The notes under the pieces: generated by a model
Told to the model about the DNA's origin: nothing
Database searches by the model: none
The model's input: only the letters and a program-made list of their open reading frames with translations
Made by a program: the position numbers and the translations under genes
From: Methanobrevibacter sp. YE315
Lineage (GTDB): Archaea > Methanobacteriota > Methanobacteria > Methanobacteriales > Methanobacteriaceae
DNA length: 64,000 nt
Assembly (NCBI RefSeq): GCF_001548675.1
Contig: NZ_CP010834.1
Span: 186,001-250,000 of the forward strand
Direction of reading: 5' to 3'
Shown: positions 27,308-36,803 of the stretch, piece after piece
Layout of the letters: every line of letters begins with the position of its first letter
Numbering within the stretch: position 1 is the stretch's first letter

Positions 27308-28342
27308 TCATTCTTCCACTTTGATTGTAATTTTTTTAATCTCTGAGTCGATTTTCAGGGAATTGACAATTGCATAAATTGTCTCTTTCAGGATTCCTTG
27401 GGTAAACTCATTCAGTTTAACGTCATGATTATTGGTTTTAAGCATGATATTTGCATTAGTCAATTCATCTTCAATGTCTGTTATTTCAATGGCTATGGTT
27501 TTAACATCATCTTCGGTCTTGATTGAGTTAACCATTCCTTTAATTGAATTTGCAACAATGGTTTTTGTAAATTCGTTGATTTCAAGGTCCTCATCATTGA
27601 TTAGAATGCTGCATTCTGCATCACTTGGATTTTTCGCTGTTTCATCGTTAGGAATTACCAGCTCTATTTTTCCGATATCTTCAACACCATAGTCTTCGAG
27701 GTTTAGTGTGCTGATTACTCCAATTACGCTCTGTTTTAGATAATCGCTTACAAACCTGTTCATTCCGACTACCTTGCCGTCTATTGACAGATAGCTATGC
27801 ACATTATCCAGATCACCCACACTTAGATTTCCTTGACGAATTTCCTTGGCTATTGCCTCACCATTATTGAATCCGCAGTTCTTTGCAAATAAGGTGTCTA
27901 CAATGTCGTGGCCTCTCTCTTCGATGAGGTCTGCCAGTTCGCTAACGCCTTGCTCATCAATTGTAAATGAATCAACTTCTTTTATTGTGTATTCATCTCT
28001 TACATTAGGGGAGGTAATGATTTTCGGATAGTTGTATTTTTTGTAGCCTTCGACAATTACAAAGTCAAATTCATCCATGTGCTTTATCAAAAATAGTATC
28101 CTGTTCAGATCCATTTCCTGTCGGACATTGAAGAATGTGGTTGATCCGACACCCACTACCAAGTTCGCACCGGCCTGCTTATGTTTCCAGGTATCAGTAT
28201 TTTCTTTATCCATCTCAATTGAGTGGTGCGAATGCTTGATGGAGGCTACGTTATAACCTCTTTTTGTTAACTCTTCAATGATTTTTACTGTCAGTGAAGT
28301 TTTTCCAGTATTTTTTCTCCCGACTATAGAAACTATTTTCAT
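27308..28342 (-). CDS. mobB: molybdopterin-guanine dinucleotide biosynthesis protein MobB with triplicated C-terminal domain
   Basis: The 344-residue product has an N-terminal MobB GTPase-like domain: P-loop [11 protein letters not shown] (about residues 7-17), [19 protein letters not shown] and [14 protein letters not shown]. It is involved in attaching GMP to molybdopterin. Residues about 184-344 are an extension containing three imperfect repeats of roughly 45 residues (R1 184-230, R2 244-287, R3 297-342). Each has the pattern xNxFxxxxLxxxIxGxxxSL then an Ile/Val-rich strand. The extension is absent from E. coli MobB. GGGGATTTG precedes the ATG. The promoter region contains a copy of the TGTGTAGT palindrome at 28402-28418. 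Confidence 0.9.
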
Positions 28343-28401
28343 TTCAAATCCCCTTATACTTTAATATAGGTTTTTGTATTAATTATATTTTTTTGATGTA
28401 T

Positions 28402-28418
28402 GGTGTTGTCACTACACT
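28402..28418. promoter_or_regulatory. degenerate copy of the fwd-region palindrome
   Basis: GGTGTTGTCACTACACT matches the perfect palindrome TGTGTAGTTACTACACA at 13 of 17 positions. It lies just upstream of the likely mobB TATA box on the reverse strand, exactly 50 bp from the perfect copy, close to five helical turns, which would allow cooperative binding. Confidence 0.55.
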
Positions 28419-28451
28419 CATTTTGGAAATGTCTTATATTCTTTACATTTA

Positions 28452-28468
28452 TGTGTAGTTACTACACA
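28452..28468. promoter_or_regulatory. perfect 17-bp palindromic operator, copy 1
   Basis: TGTGTAGTTACTACACA is an 8-1-8 perfect inverted repeat. The identical 17-mer recurs at 30111-30127. It lies 110 bp upstream of mobB and about 345 bp upstream of the 28813 ferredoxin gene. The nearby HTH-ferredoxin protein (30464) is the obvious candidate to bind it. Confidence 0.75.
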
Positions 28469-28745
28469 TAAAATAACGTTTTTTTATCTGTTTAAATTTC
28501 TTCATTTCTTTCAATACTATGCGTATTTTATGGATTTTATTTTAACTTGAAGCCTTGCTGCCAGTTATTAAAATATAATTTTCATAGGGTATGAATCATG
28601 TCAAATAAATATGTATAAATTTAATTTTTTTAAAAAAATCTTTAAACCTACTTATTTTTAATATAGATTGTGGAAAACTTAAATTAGGTTATCCTAAATC
28701 TTAAAAATCGCCAATTTTTCGAAATTAGGAAAAAATAATCGATAT

Positions 28746-28812: not shown

Positions 28813-29004
28813 ATGGCAGTAAAAATTGATTCAGAAGCTTGTGGACACATTGAAAATTGTCCAGTACAAGGATTATGCGTAAAAATTTGCGAACAAGGAG
28901 CACTTATTGAGGAAAATGGTGATGTGACTATTGTCCCTGAAAAATGTGATGATTGCGATTTATGCATTCAGAATTGTCCAAATCAAGCAATTTCAAAAGC
29001 GTAA
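28813..29004 (+). CDS. small 2[4Fe-4S] ferredoxin with an atypical first cluster motif
   Basis: The 63-residue protein has eight cysteines. The second cluster is ordinary, C45-x2-C48-x2-C51-x3-C55-P. The first is C10-x5-C16-x5-C22-x3-C26, with wider spacing than the C-x2-C-x2-C-x3-C rule. That pattern may change the potential or nuclearity of the cluster. The gene is preceded by GAGAGGTAG and followed 12 bases later by a polyferredoxin gene, so the two are co-transcribed. It probably carries electrons to or from formylmethanofuran dehydrogenase or a partner complex. It could correspond to one of the small iron-sulfur genes of fwd/fmd operons, but I cannot assign the letter. Confidence 0.85.
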   Translation: MAVKIDSEACGHIENCPVQGLCVKICEQGALIEENGDVTIVPEKCDDCDLCIQNCPNQAISKA

Positions 29005-29016
29005 GAGAGGAGTATT

Positions 29017-30033
29017 ATGTTTAATATAGAAAGAGATGGTAGTGAACACAGGGTATTGTCCTACAAAGATCAAAATTGTGTTGGTTGTGGGATCTGTACC
29101 GAAGTCTGTCCAACCGATTCATTGAGATTGGGACCTACCGTACCTATTGCACGAGGATTAATAGAAATGGATTTGGTATCCGTTAATGAAAATTCATGTG
29201 CATTTTGCGGTTTATGTTCTGTAGCATGTCCATTCAATGCCTTAGATTTATCAATTGATGATGTAAACATTAAAGAATTGGATATTTATCCTGAATGGGA
29301 TGTTGAATCAACTGTTGATGATGAAGATTGTATTTACTGTGGCAGATGCTATGAGGTTTGTCCTCAAGATTCAATTATTTTCAAAAGAGAACTTCCTGAA
29401 CGTTCTGCATTAGTAAGAGGAGAAATAAGCATTGATGATGAAAAATGTATCTTCTGTTCATTCTGTGCTGATTTATGTCCTGCAGGAGCTATAACTGTTA
29501 AAAATGTTCCTACAGCAAGCAATGATGTTTTAAATAATTCAATTGAAGTGGATTTATCCAAATGTATTTTCTGCGGAATCTGTAAAAGGGTATGTCCTGA
29601 AAATGCAATCAGAGAAGTCTGTTCAACATGTATGTATGCAGATGATATTGAAGTTCCGGAAGTCACTGGTGAAACATTCATCATTGAAAATTCATGCGTA
29701 AGCTGTTCATGGTGTTCTGAAATTTGTCCTAAAGATGCGATTACAATTACCAAACCATTTGAAGGTACATTAGAACTAAATGAAATTGAAGAAGAGGAAA
29801 AAATCTGTAAAGGCGAATCTTGCCATGCATGTCAGGATGTATGTCCATGTAATGCCGTTGAAATCGTTGACGGAAAAGCATTTACTAATTTGGACTTCTG
29901 TAATTTATGCGGGGCTTGTGTAACTGCATGTCCACAAAATATCAGAGTTGTTTCAAGAACAGCTATGAAATTAAACAATATTAATTCCAGAGCCTGGAGT
30001 GAAATTTTGGATTCACTTCTTGTTGGAAAATAG
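29017..30033 (+). CDS. polyferredoxin, FwdF paralogue, eight [4Fe-4S] sites
   Basis: The 338-residue protein contains seven canonical C-x2-C-x2-C-x3-C-P motifs (for example CVGCGICTEVCP at about residue 20) and one spaced site, C-x4-C-x2-C-x3-C (CKGESCHACQDVCP, about residue 269). That makes eight clusters in total. A lone CSTCMY pair lies in the middle, as in the FwdF encoded at 30915, with which it shares domain order and the ending SRAWSEILDSL. It should be a soluble electron wire. Because a second copy is part of the fwd operon, this one may serve another condition or another electron donor such as formate dehydrogenase. GAGAGGAG precedes the ATG. Confidence 0.9.
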   Translation: MFNIERDGSEHRVLSYKDQNCVGCGICTEVCPTDSLRLGPTVPIARGLIEMDLVSVNENSCAFCGLCSVACPFNALDLSIDDVNIKELDIYPEWDVESTVDDEDCIYCGRCYEVCPQDSIIFKRELPERSALVRGEISIDDEKCIFCSFCADLCPAGAITVKNVPTASNDVLNNSIEVDLSKCIFCGICKRVCPENAIREVCSTCMYADDIEVPEVTGETFIIENSCVSCSWCSEICPKDAITITKPFEGTLELNEIEEEEKICKGESCHACQDVCPCNAVEIVDGKAFTNLDFCNLCGACVTACPQNIRVVSRTAMKLNNINSRAWSEILDSLLVGK

Positions 30034-30110
30034 TATTTCAAGTTCACCAATAATAACTGTCACCATATAACCACTTTTTTTCATTTTTTCGGAAATTTTT
30101 CTCAAATTTA

Positions 30111-30127
30111 TGTGTAGTTACTACACA
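30111..30127. promoter_or_regulatory. perfect 17-bp palindromic operator, copy 2
   Basis: TGTGTAGTTACTACACA, identical to 28452-28468, lies 337 bp upstream of the HTH-ferredoxin start. In copy 1 the distance to the downstream gene is 345 bp, so the two regions have similar geometry. Confidence 0.75.
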
Positions 30128-30434
30128 TTTTAGGTTAACCAAAAAAATAAAACAAATTTTTTGAGATTTTGTAATACTTTTTGACTAAATTCGTATTAAA
30201 AATTTTAAGTAAAATTTTCATTTTTTCAATGATTTAAGATATAAAAATGATTTATTGAATAAAATATTTTTATTTAAGGTTATTTTATTTGATTCAATTA
30301 ATATTTAACATTATTTTTAAAATTAAATAATTTTAATTGATTTTTAAAAAATTTTTTGTGTAGTATTCCCACAGTAGTATATAAATCTTTCTATTTAATT
30401 CTAGTAGGCAACTATATTTATATAAGTAAACATA

Positions 30435-30451
30435 TGTGATATCATTACACA
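30435..30451. promoter_or_regulatory. degenerate palindrome in the HTH-ferredoxin promoter
   Basis: TGTGATATCATTACACA keeps both outer half-site ends (TGTG and TACACA) of the palindrome. It lies ten bases after TATA-like TTTATATAA (30417-30425) and twelve bases before the ATG, covering the expected transcription start. That position suits autorepression. Confidence 0.55.
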
Positions 30452-30463
30452 TTGGTGGTTAAA

Positions 30464-30922
30464 ATGCCGAAACATATTGCATCTGGTCTTAAATATTTGG
30501 CTGCGGTCAAGTTGAAGGATGCTGGGAAAAGTCATCAAGCAATTGCTGACGAGTTGGGCGTTGATAGATCCACAATATCACATTATTTGAATGGCAGAAA
30601 CCTTTCATGGAATTCAATTGATGTTGCAAGGACTATCATTGACTTATCTCCCAGAGATTTCTTAAGAATGACCGAGGCGATATTTGACGAACCAGAACAG
30701 AGTCGAAAAATTGTGAATATTTGCAGAGAAAGAGATTTCGAAGTAATTATAGAAGATTCTTGTATTGGTTGCGGCTTATGTGTAAATGCATGTACAATGA
30801 AAGCTATTGAATTAGAATCATTGAAAGCCCATGCAGACTCCATACAATGTTGTGGTTGTGAGCTATGTAGTGAAGACTGCCCAACAAGTTCTATAAAAAT
30901 TTTGGAGATTGAATATGATTAG
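30464..30922 (+). CDS. HTH-ferredoxin fusion, putative redox/Fe-S-sensing regulator of the fwd operon
   Basis: The 152-residue protein has a Cro/Tfx-like helix-turn-helix at about residues 22-46 (KSHQAIADELGVDRSTISHY). A helical linker follows, then two [4Fe-4S] ferredoxin motifs: C101-x2-C104-x2-C107-x3-C111 and C130-x2-C133-x2-C136-x3-C140-P. Such a fusion is expected to change DNA binding when its clusters are oxidised, reduced or lost. ATG 30464 is chosen because GGTGGTT precedes it. The FwdF gene starts inside its last codons (eight-base overlap), so regulator and fwd subunits are translated from one message. It is distinct from Tfx of Methanothermobacter, which has no ferredoxin part as far as I recall. 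Its binding target is inferred to be the nearby palindromes. Confidence 0.8.
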   Translation: MPKHIASGLKYLAAVKLKDAGKSHQAIADELGVDRSTISHYLNGRNLSWNSIDVARTIIDLSPRDFLRMTEAIFDEPEQSRKIVNICRERDFEVIIEDSCIGCGLCVNACTMKAIELESLKAHADSIQCCGCELCSEDCPTSSIKILEIEYD

Positions 30923-32012
30923 AAATTTAAAAGAGGTTCAAGACAACAACTTTGACATCACAAGAGATGCTGAAGAAGTTAGAAAATTGTCTTTCAATGA
31001 CCCTACTTGTTTAGGTTGTGGGATTTGTGAATCAACTTGTCCTGTCGAAGCAATTACCTTAAACGCAATTGCTGTAGACGCACGTCACAGAATCTCAAAC
31101 GACATCTACTTCAGTGGTCATGAAAAGATTGCTCAAAACTTCAAAGACGAATTTGATGTTCAAAGAGTAAGCATTGACGAAAGTAAATGTGTATTATGTG
31201 GTATGTGCAGTGGTTTATGTCCTGTTGATGCGTTAGTATTAACTATTGACGGCGTACCAATCAAAGAAATTGAAGCATATCCTCATTATAACGCTTTCTC
31301 AGAAATTGATGATGATGAATGTATTTACTGTAAAAGATGTGAAATCGCATGTCCTCGTGATGCAATTGTCATTGAAAGAATTTTACCAGACCGTGCTGAT
31401 TTAGTGACTGGTGAAATCGAAGTAGATGATAATGAATGTATTTACTGTGGCATTTGTGAAGAATTATGTCCTGCAGAAGCAATCGTCGTGGACAAAGAAA
31501 CCGGAGAAGAATCTATTGTCATTGACAAAGATAAATGTGTATACTGTTTAGTATGTAAAAAATCCTGTCCTACTAACGCTATTAAAGCACTTTGTAGAGC
31601 ATGCAGTTATGGTGAATATGATTTAGATCCTGCTAAAGCTGTCGTAACTGGAAACTCTGTAATTGACTCAAGTCTCTGCGTATTCTGTGGATGGTGTGAA
31701 GGAGTTTGTCCAACCGATGCAGCTAAACACAAAAAACCATTTGAAGGTTCTATTGAAATCGATGACGAAAAATGTCAAGCTTGTGGAGCTTGTGTAGATA
31801 TTTGTGGATGTAACGCTTTAGCATTCCCTGTATCTTCTGGTCCTGGTTCAAGAATGGAACACGTTATTGCAAACAGCGATTACTGTGTAAAATGTAAAGC
31901 ATGTGCAAAAGCATGTCCTAACGGAGCTATTACCGTAACAAGAACTGAAGTTGACCACACTCCTATTAACTCCGCTACTTGGAAAGAAGCTTTAGACGCT
32001 ATTAAAGACTAG
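30915..32012 (+). CDS. fwdF: formylmethanofuran dehydrogenase polyferredoxin subunit FwdF
   Basis: The protein of about 365 residues has eight C-x2-C-x2-C-x3-C sites in four ferredoxin-like pairs, from CLGCGICESTCP to CVKCKACAKACP. In the Methanothermobacter wolfeii enzyme, FwdF clusters form a long wire joining two catalytic halves. The seventh site ends CG instead of CP. The start is ATG 30915 (GGAGATTG upstream); the in-frame TTG at 30909 is unlikely. It overlaps the HTH-ferredoxin gene and precedes fwdG by eight bases. The operon order here is F-G-D-B-A-C, unlike the H-F-G-D-A-C-B order I recall for Methanothermobacter. Confidence 0.93.
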   Translation: MIRNLKEVQDNNFDITRDAEEVRKLSFNDPTCLGCGICESTCPVEAITLNAIAVDARHRISNDIYFSGHEKIAQNFKDEFDVQRVSIDESKCVLCGMCSGLCPVDALVLTIDGVPIKEIEAYPHYNAFSEIDDDECIYCKRCEIACPRDAIVIERILPDRADLVTGEIEVDDNECIYCGICEELCPAEAIVVDKETGEESIVIDKDKCVYCLVCKKSCPTNAIKALCRACSYGEYDLDPAKAVVTGNSVIDSSLCVFCGWCEGVCPTDAAKHKKPFEGSIEIDDEKCQACGACVDICGCNALAFPVSSGPGSRMEHVIANSDYCVKCKACAKACPNGAITVTRTEVDHTPINSATWKEALDAIKD

Positions 32013-32020
32013 GTGATTGG

Positions 32021-32251
32021 ATGGAACTTAAAGTTAATCAAGATAATTGTTTAGGATGCGGGATTTGTGTAATCGCATGTCCTGTTAATGCAGCTATCAG
32101 TCCTGAAAATGCTGGTGGTAATGGTGCAAAGACTGAAGAAGTTATTATGATGGTAGAAAACGGATTTATCAAACTTTTCAGTCCGGAAAAATGTGAAAAA
32201 TGTGGAACATGCCAAATGTTCTGCCCAGTAAATGCTATATGGTTAGAATAG
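32021..32251 (+). CDS. fwdG: formylmethanofuran dehydrogenase ferredoxin subunit FwdG
   Basis: This 76-residue 2[4Fe-4S] ferredoxin has the sites CLGCGICVIACP (about residues 10-21) and CEKCGTCQMFCP (about 58-69). The loop of about 36 residues between the sites (AGGNGAKTEEVIMM region) is longer than in bacterial ferredoxins, as in other FwdG proteins. It links the tungsten site of FwdBD to the FwdF wire. GGTGATTGG precedes the ATG, and fwdD starts 12 bases downstream. Confidence 0.92.
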   Translation: MELKVNQDNCLGCGICVIACPVNAAISPENAGGNGAKTEEVIMMVENGFIKLFSPEKCEKCGTCQMFCPVNAIWLE

Positions 32252-32263
32252 GGGGATTACAAT

Positions 32264-32833
32264 ATGCATTATGCTAATACTTATTTAGAAAAACCTGTAG
32301 TACCTGATGTAAAAATCACTGGTGAAGGAACAACCGATGTTCTCAAATGTATGTTAAACACCGGATCTGACATCTATCAAGGTGCTTGTAAAAAAAGAGG
32401 ATCCACCTTAAAAGAAGAATACAAAAACGCTTCAGGTACTTGTTACATGGATCCTAGAGACATGGCAAAATTAGGTGTAAACAACTGGGATACCGTACTT
32501 GTTAAAACCGATTTCGGTGAAGTAGTAGTAAACTGTGCTGTATCAAGAGACGCACCTCACGAAGGAACAGTATTCATTTGTAAAGGTCCATGGGCTAACA
32601 CTATCGTAAGCCACGATACCTACTGCTGCTCTGACCCTACTTACAAAGGTATTAGATGTACTGTTGAAAAAACTGATAGAAAAGTATTACTCATGGCTGA
32701 CTTAATGAGATGGGTATACAAAAAATACGTTGATGAAGAAGATGACGATGTTGTTGAAAACATGGAATCTTTAGGTGAATTGCCTGTTTATCACGGACGT
32801 AAATGGGAGGAGTTGATTGACCATGACTTATGA
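32264..32833 (+). CDS. fwdD: formylmethanofuran dehydrogenase subunit FwdD
   Basis: The 189-residue subunit is the molybdopterin-dinucleotide-binding domain that closes over the active site of FwdB. The core [22 protein letters not shown] is the usual cap-domain pattern found at the C-terminus of fused enzymes such as FdhA. It has an extra Cys-rich part ([17 protein letters not shown]) and a charged C-terminal tail, making it somewhat longer than the roughly 130-residue form I associate with the family. The fwdB start overlaps its end by eleven bases. Confidence 0.92.
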
Positions 32834-34199
32834 ACCACCTGTAACTGATTATGATTACATTGTTGAAAACTGTACCTGTGCATTCTGTGGTTGTAACTGT
32901 GACGACTTAGACTACTTAGTCAAAAACGGTCATGTAGTTGCTGTAAGACACGCATGCAGATTAGGTGCAAGTAAAATTATGGAAGATATGGATCAAAGAT
33001 TAATTGTTCCAATGATTAGGGATGAAAACGGAGAACTCAAAGAAGTTGACTGGGATACCGCTTTAGACAAAGCTGCTGAATACATTGCTAATTCCATCAG
33101 ACCAGTATTCTACGGTTGGTCAGAAACTTCTACTGAATGTATGAAAGAAGGAGTAGCATTAGGTGAATACATCGGTGCAGTATTAGACAACCAAGCTACT
33201 ATCTGTCACGGTCCTTCTCTCCAAGCTGTACAAAACGCAGGTTACCCTATTCAAACCTTAGGAGAAGTTCAAAACAGAGCTGACGTTATTGCATACTCTG
33301 GAAGTAACGCTATGAACTCTCACCCAAGACACATGGCAAGATACGCTGTATTCTGCCGTGGATACTTCAGACAAAGAGGAAGATTCGACAGAACCGTTAT
33401 TACCATGGATCCAAAATTCTCAGACACTGCAAGATGTTCTGACAAATGGATTGGATTCGAACAAAACGGTGACTACGGTTTCTACAACGCTATTAGAGCT
33501 GTATTAAGAGGAAAAGAATTATACCAAGACGTAATTTCTGGAATTCCTAAAGAAGACATTTACGAATTAGCAGAAGAAATGAAAAACGCTGAATTCGGTG
33601 TTCTCTTCTTCGGTTTAGGTTTAACCCACACATTATCAAAACAAAGAAACATTGATATTGCAATTAAAATGGTACAAGACTTAAACAAATACAGTAAATG
33701 GGGTCTTACTCCAATGAGAGGTCACTTCAACGTAAACGGTTTCAACATTTTCATGGCATTCGAATGTGGATTTGCATTTGGTGTTGACTATGCAAGAGGT
33801 TACCCAAGATATATGATGGGTGAAACCAACACTATCGATTTATTAGTAAGGAAAGAACCAGACTGTTTCATGGTTATTGCAGCTGACCCTGGTGCTCACT
33901 TCCCTAACGGAGCAAACCAACACTTAGCTAACATTCCTGTTATTCAAATCGATATCCACTGGGGTCCATCTACCGAACTTGCTGACGTAGTATTGCCAGG
34001 TTCATTCATCGGTGTAGAATGTGCCGGTACCAGTTATCGTATGGATGGAGTTCCTATCTACATGAAGAAAGCTATCGACAAACCAGAAACCTGTCGTGAC
34101 GACGAATGGATTGTCCGTGAATTGAAAGAAAGAGTAATGAAACTCAGAGAAGAGCCAAACGTAGCTCCAAAATATGTGCCAAATCCAAACGCACTCTAA
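32823..34199 (+). CDS. fwdB: formylmethanofuran dehydrogenase catalytic subunit FwdB
   Basis: This 458-residue Mo/W-bisPGD subunit reduces CO2 to formate inside the Fwd complex. The N-terminal [4Fe-4S] site is [10 protein letters not shown] with a later Cys (RHACRLG). The metal ligand is C128 in [12 protein letters not shown], so this is the Cys form, not the selenocysteine form. Pterin-binding segments include [20 protein letters not shown] and [17 protein letters not shown] 32823 follows GGAGGAGTTGATTG. Whether the metal is tungsten or molybdenum cannot be read from sequence, so fwdB rather than fmdB is a convention here. It is followed by fwdA. Confidence 0.93.
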
Positions 34200-34209
34200 A
34201 GGTGATATA

Positions 34210-35925
34210 ATGGAATATATTCTTAAAAATGGTATTGTCTACGACCCAGCTAATGAAGTCAATGGGGAAAAGATGGACGTAATGTTCAAAGACGGTATTA
34301 TTGTAGATGATGTTTCTGCAGATGCTGAAGTATTAGACGTTACCGATAAAATAGTCATGCCAGCAGGTATTGACCCTCACGCACACGTTGCAGGTCCTAA
34401 ATTAGTAGTAGGAAGATTATACAGACCTGAAGATTCCAGAAGAGGTGTTACTCAAAAGACCAAAGTATTAAGGTCTGAATCTGGTTTCTCCATCCCAAGT
34501 TGTCCTGCAACTGGTTACAGATACTCAAGATTAGGTTACGGTACTGTTGTAGAAGCAGCTATGCCTCCTCTTGAAGCAAAACACACTCACGAAGAAATTG
34601 CAACTATTCCAATGATTGATATTCCAGCTATGCCGTTATTCGGTAACAACTGGTTTGTAATGGAATACGCAAAAGATAACAATATTGAAGACATTGCAGC
34701 ATTTGTATCTGCATGGTTAAAAATCTCAAAAGGTTACGGAATTAAAATCGTAAACCCATGTGGAAGTGAAGCATGGGGATGGGGTATGAACGTACACGGT
34801 GTAAATGATAAAGCACCATACTTTGACGTAACTTCCAAAGAAGTCGTTATCGCTTTAGCAAAAGCTAACGAAATGTTGAACTTACCTCACTCTATTCACA
34901 TTCACCCTAACGATTTAGGACACCCTGGTAACTACACTACCACTCTCGAAACCATGGATGCTGTTAAAGATGTTAAAAAAGGTTCCAAAGCAGCTGAAAT
35001 AAGAGACCAAGTTATGCACGTTTGTCACTTACAATTCCACGCATACACTGGTAACAGCTGGAAAGACGCAGGATCTGCAGCACCAGAACTCGCTGATTAC
35101 ATTAACAAAAACAAACATGTAACCTGTGACGTAGGTCAAGTAACCTTAGATGAAACCACAACCATGACTGCAGATGCTCCAATGGAATACGACTTATTCA
35201 AATTATCCGGTCTCAAATGGACCAACAAAGATATTGAATGTGAAACCGCAGCAGGTATCATTCCATGTATTTACTCAGGTAAAAACCCAGTTAACACATT
35301 ACAATGGGCTATCGGTCTTGAATTGTTCTTAGGCATTGAAAACCCATGGCAAGTATGTTTAACTACTGACCACCCTAACGCAGGACCATACACTAGATAT
35401 CCTAGAATCATCTCCTGGTTGATGAGTAACCAAAGAAGGATGGAAATGATGGAAAACGGAGAAGTCCACAAATGGGCACAAAGAAGAACTACTCTCCCAA
35501 CTCTCGACAGAGAATACGATTTCTACGAAATTGCAACTATTTCCAGAGCTGCTCCTGCTAGAATCTACGGATTCACTGACAGAGGTGCACTCACCCCTGG
35601 TTACAGAGCAGACATTGCAGTATATGACATAAATCCTAATGAAATTGATCCATCCAGACAAGCTGCTGAAATCGAAAAAGGTTTCAATGTTGCTGAATAC
35701 ACTATTAAAGATGGTCAAATCTTAGTGAAAGATAAAGAAATCGTAAAAGTTAAAGAAAGTCAAAACATTTGGGTTAACGTAAAAGGATGGGAACAAAACG
35801 AACAAAAAGTTATCAACAACATCATGCCGTTCTTTACTCAATACTACTCAGTTAAATGGGAAAATTACCCAGTACACGACCACTACGTATCTAACCCAAT
35901 TAGAATAGATGTTGATGGTAAATAG
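34210..35925 (+). CDS. fwdA: formylmethanofuran dehydrogenase subunit FwdA
   Basis: This 571-residue amidohydrolase-fold subunit joins formate and methanofuran to give formylmethanofuran. Metal ligands are visible in [13 protein letters not shown] (about residues 55-67), [15 protein letters not shown] and [10 protein letters not shown]; a Lys in [13 protein letters not shown] is the likely carboxylated bridge. The C-terminal [16 protein letters not shown] is the closing beta-sandwich. The start is ATG 34210 after GGTGATAT. Length and motifs are as expected for the intact enzyme. fwdC begins 11 bases after the stop. Confidence 0.95.
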
Positions 35926-35936
35926 GGGTGTTTAAT

Positions 35937-36803
35937 TTGAAAACTATAACTTTTGATCAAATAAAAACTTCTTCAATCGCTTTAGAATTTGATGAATTAA
36001 TTCCTGATGAAATTTATTCATGGACTGAAGCAGATTTTGCAAAATATCAAGTTCCTATCGGAAACTCCAGATTCCCAATTACAGATTTCTTCGACATTAC
36101 TGTAGTAGGAGAAGCTAATGGACCTGATGACGTTGAAATGATTCTCAACGGTGATTTAAACAGAGTTAAATACATCGGTTGTAAAATGAGCGGCGGTAAA
36201 ATTTTATGTAACAGCAGTGTAGATTTACACGTTGGTGCAGAAATGTCTGGCGGTTCTATCCTTGTTAAAGGTGATGCAGCTGCTCACGCTGGAAGAGAAA
36301 TGTCCGGTGGATACCTTGAAATTGAAGGAAATACCAAAGAATTCACTGGTGCTTCTTACATTGGTGAATGGAGAGGTATGACCGGTGGAGAAATTGTTGT
36401 CGGCGGTAACGCAGGTAAACAATGTGGTGAATGTTTAACCGGTGGTAAAATCCACGTTAAAGGTAACTGTGATATCTTAGCTGGTATTCACATGACTAAA
36501 GGTATCATTGAAATCGACGGTGACGTAAACCGTTGGCCTGGTGGACAAATGAAAAACGGTAACATCATTATCCACGGATTCCTTGGAAGATTACTCGAAG
36601 GATTCGTTCTCGACGGTATTGTTGTAGATCCTGAAGTAGACGGTATCACTTTCGAAGGTAAATATATTAAATATACTGGAGATATTGGTCTTAACGGTAA
36701 AGGTAACCTTTACTTAGGTGCTGAAGCTAACAAAGAAAAATTAGCTGAATATGGCGAATTAGACGACGAATATACTTCAATCAGAGAATACAGGAATTTA
36801 TAA
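35937..36803 (+). CDS. fwdC: formylmethanofuran dehydrogenase subunit FwdC
   Basis: The 288-residue protein is built of repeated Gly-rich turns ([45 protein letters not shown]), the right-handed beta-helix shared with the C-terminal domain of glutamate synthase. It scaffolds FwdA and FwdB. The start is taken at TTG 35937, six bases after AGGGGTG; the in-frame GTG at 35928 belongs to that ribosome-binding site. It is the last fwd gene. Convergent T-rich sequence at 36815-36830 probably ends the transcript. Confidence 0.93.

Follow-up and report, generated by a model that had tools for sequence, protein, structure and literature searches.

FwdH, the protein encoded directly before the formylmethanofuran dehydrogenase genes fwdFGDBAC in the 64,000-nucleotide stretch of DNA analysed here (the window), is probably a site-specific transcription factor that binds palindromic operators, represses its own operon and has its DNA affinity set by two [4Fe-4S] clusters. 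What has been taken for an enzyme subunit is the best candidate for the dedicated regulator of that enzyme, and it comes with defined candidate operators. Hydrogenotrophic methanogenesis begins with formylmethanofuran dehydrogenase, whose reaction consumes ferredoxin; beyond Tfx and the molybdenum isoenzyme, control of the level of this enzyme has, to our knowledge, been an open matter.

The fwdH gene and its product

The fwdH gene (30464–30922, forward strand) is a single uninterrupted reading frame of 152 codons for amino acids that runs from ATG 30464 to TAG 30920–30922. Alternative in-frame starts are present at TTG 30452 and GTG 30455, and conservation among homologues begins only at ATG 30464 (MPKHI). 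A Shine-Dalgarno-like GGTGGT (30454–30459, forward strand) precedes this ATG and is kept beside it in relatives. The protein joins a lambda-repressor-type helix-turn-helix (HTH) domain (residues 2–87) to a 2[4Fe-4S] ferredoxin domain (residues 91–149). Pfam, AlphaFold2 and the alignment agree on this architecture, as a sequence-only reading of the same DNA had proposed when it placed an HTH and two complete [4Fe-4S] motifs in one chain. The N-terminal half matches PF01381 (HTH_3, residues 18–46) with 24.8 bits against a cut-off of 23, and PF13560 (HTH_31) with a score at its cut-off; the C-terminal half (residues 94–144) matches PF00037 with 35.4 bits (cut-off 21.1) and PF14697 with 35.9 (cut-off 35). 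The AlphaFold2 model, built with 50 homologues (pLDDT 93.5, pTM 0.86) and preferred to a discarded earlier run with 20 sequences (pLDDT 58.6), predicts helices at residues 2–19, 24–31, 35–42, 49–59, 63–74 and 77–87, followed by a small beta/alpha ferredoxin fold.

The HTH motif proper (residues 23–46; 30530–30601, forward strand) is covered by the HTH_3 and HTH_31 matches and by model helices 24–31 and 35–42. Its recognition helix, RSTISHYLNGR (residues 35–45), is among the best-conserved parts of the protein: R35, S36, T37, S39, H40, Y41 and G44 are invariant across 50 FwdH sequences, and SHYL-GR persists into homologues from Methanococci. The alignment places the first [4Fe-4S] motif at C100-x2-C103-x2-C106-x3-C110 (30761–30793) and the second at C129-x2-C132-x2-C135-x3-C139-P (30848–30880), both on the forward strand. 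The motifs therefore stand as first read, with numbering that is one residue lower (100–110 and 129–139, not 101–111 and 130–140). None of the eight cluster cysteines varies in the 50 sequences, which span Methanobacteriales, and it is very probable that FwdH carries clusters. A further cysteine, C87, appeared invariant in 20 sequences and fails in 50. Searched against the PDB with phmmer, residues 1–90 find mainly lambda cI repressors, weakly, and the PDB matches returned by Foldseek either cover the ferredoxin part or are of poor quality; none reaches E ≤ 0.001, and there is no significant viral match.

The end of fwdH overlaps the start of the next gene, as had been claimed: the fwdH stop and the fwdF start share 8 nt (ATGATTAG) because fwdF starts at ATG 30915. 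The polyferredoxin gene fwdF (30915–32012, forward strand; NF042909, 430.9 bits) is the first structural gene of fwdFGDBAC and is followed on the same strand by fwdG, fwdD, fwdB, fwdA and fwdC (32021–36803). Overlap or a very short gap between fwdH and fwdF is seen again in relatives, including Methanocaldococcus-type genomes. Directly 3' of fwdC lie tandem paralogues of DUF2097 (PF09870; 36846–37136 and 37192–37548), a family of unknown function.

Identity and distribution of FwdH

Over 152 amino acids the protein is 55% identical to an orthologue in genome G047, which we take to be M. thermautotrophicus deltaH, and 47% identical to one in genome G049. The G047 orthologue heads fwdHFGDACB, and upstream of it lie a formate-dehydrogenase-like gene and the genes moaA and mobB. 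MTH1553–1559 are listed in the literature as fwdHFGDACB and the enzyme is called FwdA-DFGH, so that FwdH is counted as a subunit (PMC3087415). Because the orthologue begins the G047 fwd operon and the operon is listed in this way, the window protein is identified as FwdH, an identity that the sequence-only reading had missed although its view of the protein as regulatory has good comparative support. No DNA-binding, HTH or regulatory role for FwdH was found in the open literature searched, and an earlier mention elsewhere is possible.

The published listing (PMC3087415) suggests another reading, in which FwdH belongs to the tungsten enzyme as a subunit for electron transfer, its HTH is a relic or a protein–protein interface and the operators are used by another factor. 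Co-translation with FwdF and the resemblance of the FwdH ferredoxin domain to FwdF segments point the same way. This is unlikely, however, given that the recognition-helix residues are invariant in 50 sequences and kept into Methanococci, that dedicated operators are almost confined to the fwdH locus and that PDB Fwd complexes contain no FwdH-like chain. The HTH half matches no PDB chain even though Fwd complexes are present there, and absence from a crystal is not proof.

Within the phylum, 112 of 152 genomes encode a full-length homologue; the genomes that lack one are largely incomplete assemblies together with one genus, g26. A profile search finds homologues in all 36 genomes of a second GTDB phylum, at 1e-27 to 1e-34. 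We take this phylum to be the Methanococci because genome G357 matches M. jannaschii. The homologue lies directly before fwdF in all 14 fwd-linked Methanococci copies mapped in detail (L205–L217 and L219), and comparison of orthologue neighbourhoods, which the sequence-only reading had recommended, places the fwd-linked copy upstream of fwdF wherever it was mapped in both phyla. The first motif of the fwd-linked Methanococci homologues is CxxCxxCxxC, one residue shorter, with all eight cysteines kept. An HTH–ferredoxin paralogue also occurs in Methanococci downstream of korABG-like 2-oxoacid:ferredoxin oxidoreductase genes (L204 in G193 and L218 in G417). In these kor-linked paralogues both motifs have the regular CxxCxxCxxxC form. 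Neither gene is directly followed by a fwd operon, and neither locus has a FwdH operator that could be recognised.

Candidate operators in the window genome

The candidate operator is a 19-bp palindrome with TGTK-N9-MACA arms. Its perfect form, ATGTGTAGTTACTACACAT, occurs at 28451 and 30110 and nowhere else in the genome, with 0.03 occurrences expected in the window. The sites near 28.4 and 30.1 kb to which attention had been drawn earlier are these two perfect palindromes: one lies upstream of mobB (28451–28469, forward strand) and the other, O1 (30110–30128, forward strand), lies near −354 of fwdH. A third genome-wide match, the sole other one at ≤3 mismatches (it has 2), is inside a coding sequence and was rejected. 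A degenerate operator between the perfect site and mobB (28401–28419, forward strand) is the fifth-best PSSM match in the window.

The degenerate operator that had been noticed at the promoter of fwdH itself proves to be two copies, one on either side of that promoter. O2 (TTGTGTAGTATTCCCACAG; 30356–30374, forward strand) has a conserved position about −106/−107 from the ATG and ends 3 bp before the predicted TATA box of the fwdH–fwdFGDBAC promoter (TATATAAAT; 30378–30386, forward strand), at a conserved distance. O3 (ATGTGATATCATTACACAT; 30434–30452, forward strand), conserved at about −28/−29, lies just 5' of the Shine-Dalgarno element. Just 3' of the TATA box, Methanobrevibacter-type genomes have a conserved TCTAGTAGGCAACTAT stretch (30400–30412), which is probably an initiator or transcription start. 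O3 is palindromic and is situated in the probable 5' leader beside GGTGGT, and could be viewed as an RNA leader hairpin that controls translation from before the Shine-Dalgarno element. Such a role is very improbable, because the motif also occurs as O2 and O1 on the 5' side of the TATA box, in DNA that the fwdH promoter leaves untranscribed, and no Rfam family matched.

The mobB side of the locus

The mobB-like gene (molybdopterin guanine dinucleotide synthesis protein B; 27308–28342, reverse strand; PF03205, 111.7 bits) is divergent from fwdH. Between the two genes in the window are a small ferredoxin gene (fdx) and a second FwdF-type polyferredoxin gene (fwdF2; 28813–30033), and one of the two perfect operators lies close to either end of this pair. 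The fwdF2 product is 39% identical to that of fwdF and scores above the FwdF model cut-off. Besides the window genome, 8 of 35 related loci have this fdx–fwdF2 module, and with an operator near each end the region looks as if it had been duplicated or inserted. In relatives without the module, mobB–moaA is divergent from fwdH and O1 is ~60 bp from mobB; the 30.1-kb site corresponds to this mobB-proximal operator, a correspondence that had escaped the sequence-only reading. O1 is still near −354 of fwdH in one relative (L113) despite another intervening gene. The local regulon would likely comprise mobB–moaA and fwdHFGDBAC, with mobB and moaA together as probable members and fdx–fwdF2 possibly included. 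In a ruminantium-type clade (L149, L151, L155 and L159), a strong operator pair 24 bp apart lies near −410/−386 of fwdH; mobB–moaA is co-directional with fwdH there and O3 is a half-site only.

Operators across Methanobacteriales and Methanococci

A 17-mer of the operator allowed ≤1 mismatch falls at the fwdH locus in 37 same-genus genomes, with one exception. A relaxed pattern with twelve fixed bases, run on 61 genomes, picks out the fwdH locus in most genomes of the Methanobrevibacter type and in most Methanothermobacter-like ones, and has six matches elsewhere; reversed and control patterns have zero matches in the same scan. Off-locus matches in relatives were rejected: three of the five that were opened are inside coding sequences and none is at a shared promoter. 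Methanothermobacter-like genomes have sites at the fwdH promoter only.

Mean palindromicity across 49 non-redundant upstream regions peaks only at O2 (4.69 of 9 pairs) and O3 (4.57 of 9), where the highest value among 300 shuffled sets is 3.73. The spacing between O2 and O3 is 77–79 bp in 43 of the 49 regions, and in 33 of 48 the distance from the end of O2 to a TATA-like box is exactly 3 bp, with 0–4 bp in nearly all others. The twin-operator layout holds through Methanobacteriales. Candidatus Methanoflexus (L132) has no sites at −106/−28 and carries two sites 79 bp apart at −300 and −221.

Methanococci provide an independent test because the operator sequence differs there: it is shifted to TGTGAG.. 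or TGTTAG.. and stands before the fwdH homologue and fwdFGDAC. A site was required to be a 19-mer with at least 7 of 8 TGTK-N9-MACA arm letters, at least 5 of 9 pairs and a TATA element exactly 3 bp downstream. Such operator–TATA combinations are present at 24 of 34 loci (200 shuffles gave 0.065 on average and never more than 2), in a test that is not fully blind since arms and register came from Methanobacteria and were widened to TGTT after the first Methanococci loci. Methanocaldococcus-type TGTGAG sites at −104/−103 fit the original arms with no widening. Strong second operator copies occur 77–78 bp away. Covariation between recognition helix and operator (TGTG versus TGTT arms) was too inconsistent to claim, as RSI helices occur with both. 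That Methanobacteria and Methanococci share a twin-operator promoter implies that this regulatory wiring is very old. The earlier suggestion that FwdH controls the operon with which it is co-translated gains comparative support from the retention of operator position and spacing across two phyla while the sequence drifts, and further support from the lack of tfx in the genome and the loss of fwdH together with the locus operator in one genus.

Genomes without fwdH and the identity of the binding protein

In the two genomes of genus g26 that were read (L200 and L201), the locus retains fwdGDBAC and lacks the operator as well as fwdF, fwdH, mobB and moaA. This is the picture that we would expect of Methanosphaera, which presumably has lost its molybdopterin genes. 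NrpR and small ferredoxin genes adjoin the fwd remnant in both genomes. Same-genus genomes without fwdH give no independent test because the whole locus is missing through assembly gaps. In four of these (G007, G013, G019 and G022) fwdB and mobB are missing along with fwdH and the operator, and in a fifth (G017) the contig ends shortly after fwdF2, which is an assembly gap rather than a loss.

Tfx is an HTH protein encoded beside the formylmethanofuran dehydrogenase operon fmdECB and is thought to be its regulator (PMC3087415). Tfx, a ModE-like protein or another Mo/W regulator might bind the palindromes, with FwdH acting elsewhere or as a co-factor. An operator common to mobB and moaA points to Mo/W-pterin metabolism, and tungstate represses tfx in Methanothermobacter (PMC3087415). 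Yet tfx (PF14601) is absent from the window genome and from five other relatives tested, three of which have fwdH, and the two genomes that do encode Tfx have no operator near its gene. TFX_C (PF14601) is not among the best 25 families in the Pfam scan of FwdH. Tfx is ruled out as the binder here by the absence of PF14601 and the lack of an operator near tfx elsewhere, and a binder other than FwdH is improbable because in both phyla the operator goes with the fwdH locus. Binding of the palindromes by FwdH itself would be the simplest reading, since they track its locus in both phyla, Tfx is ruled out and the recognition helix is highly conserved.

Proposed regulation by FwdH

The conserved arrangement of genes and operators makes it very likely that FwdH regulates its own operon. 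A FwdH dimer would occupy the 19-bp palindromes on either side of the core promoter of fwdHFGDBAC. O2 would overlap or abut the BRE position beside the TATA box, and O3 would lie ~25–45 nt into the transcript, counted from a start estimated from that box. In Methanobrevibacter-type genomes FwdH may also bind beside the divergent mobB–moaA. Bound FwdH would most likely hinder TBP/TFB and polymerase escape and so repress its own operon. The positions of O2 and O3 suit repression, although an activator could also act at O2, and we favour a repressor over an activator. Simple looping is disfavoured because the O2–O3 spacing, at ~7.4 helical turns, falls between whole turns. In Methanothermobacter the tungsten enzyme is reported to be formed constitutively (PMC3087415), so regulation by FwdH may be modest.

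The 2[4Fe-4S] domain would most likely set DNA affinity through cluster occupancy or redox state, in which case CO2-reducing capacity and the pterin cofactor would be matched to reduced-ferredoxin or Fe-S status. The leading candidate for the signal is Fe-S occupancy or redox state because a ferredoxin domain is fused to the HTH, and a ferredoxin-linked signal fits with the paralogue that adjoins korABG, which encodes a ferredoxin-dependent enzyme. Sensing by ferredoxin-type clusters, as the sequence-only reading had envisaged, is plausible given eight cysteines that are kept in every homologue read; ferredoxin redox state, iron, W/Mo or cofactor supply and titration by FwdF would all fit the observations alike. 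We lean towards the clusters being the sensor.

A less likely account, which nevertheless carries some weight, is that FwdH regulates in response to assembly or cofactor supply, by titration with FwdF or the Fwd complex or by W/Mo-pterin sensing, and that its clusters are structural or serve docking. The 1:1 translational coupling of fwdH and fwdF in Methanobacteria and Methanocaldococcus-type genomes is consistent with this account, as is the joint absence of fwdF and mobB/moaA with fwdH in one genus. Against it, the eight cysteines are present in all homologues, even in kor-linked paralogues with no fwd operon directly downstream, which suggests that the clusters matter on their own. If the clusters of FwdH are the sensor, ferredoxin redox state would be linked to transcription in rumen and gut methanogens. 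More tentatively, FwdH may be a direct switch from ferredoxin potential to transcription, a low-potential 2[4Fe-4S] sensor with an HTH of its own that was already present in the common ancestor of Methanobacteria and Methanococci. It would determine how much of the first CO2-reducing enzyme of methanogenesis is made, and would be the founder of a wider family of HTH–ferredoxin regulators encoded beside ferredoxin-dependent enzymes such as fwd and kor.

Comparison with known systems

FwdH of Methanothermobacter (MTH1553) is an orthologue by sequence (55% identity) and by its place before fwdF; it has been described as an enzyme subunit (PMC3087415), whereas a regulator is proposed here. Fe-S-dependent HTH regulators are known as a kind, and a two-cluster ferredoxin on a repressor-type HTH for fwd appears undescribed in the searchable literature. 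Tfx resembles FwdH in that it is an HTH protein whose gene adjoins a formylmethanofuran dehydrogenase operon, but it has a C-terminal PF14601 domain and no ferredoxin. Lambda-repressor-like (XRE/HTH_3) regulators share with FwdH a five- to six-helix N-terminal domain, the HTH_3 family and palindromic operators, and FwdH differs from them in its C-terminal domain, a 2[4Fe-4S] ferredoxin. FNR, IscR, NsrR, SoxR and WhiB each use a single cluster in a dedicated fold, and we know of no clostridial-type two-cluster ferredoxin domain in any of them. What FwdH would have in common with these five, judging from its domain fusion, is an HTH protein whose activity depends on Fe-S clusters.
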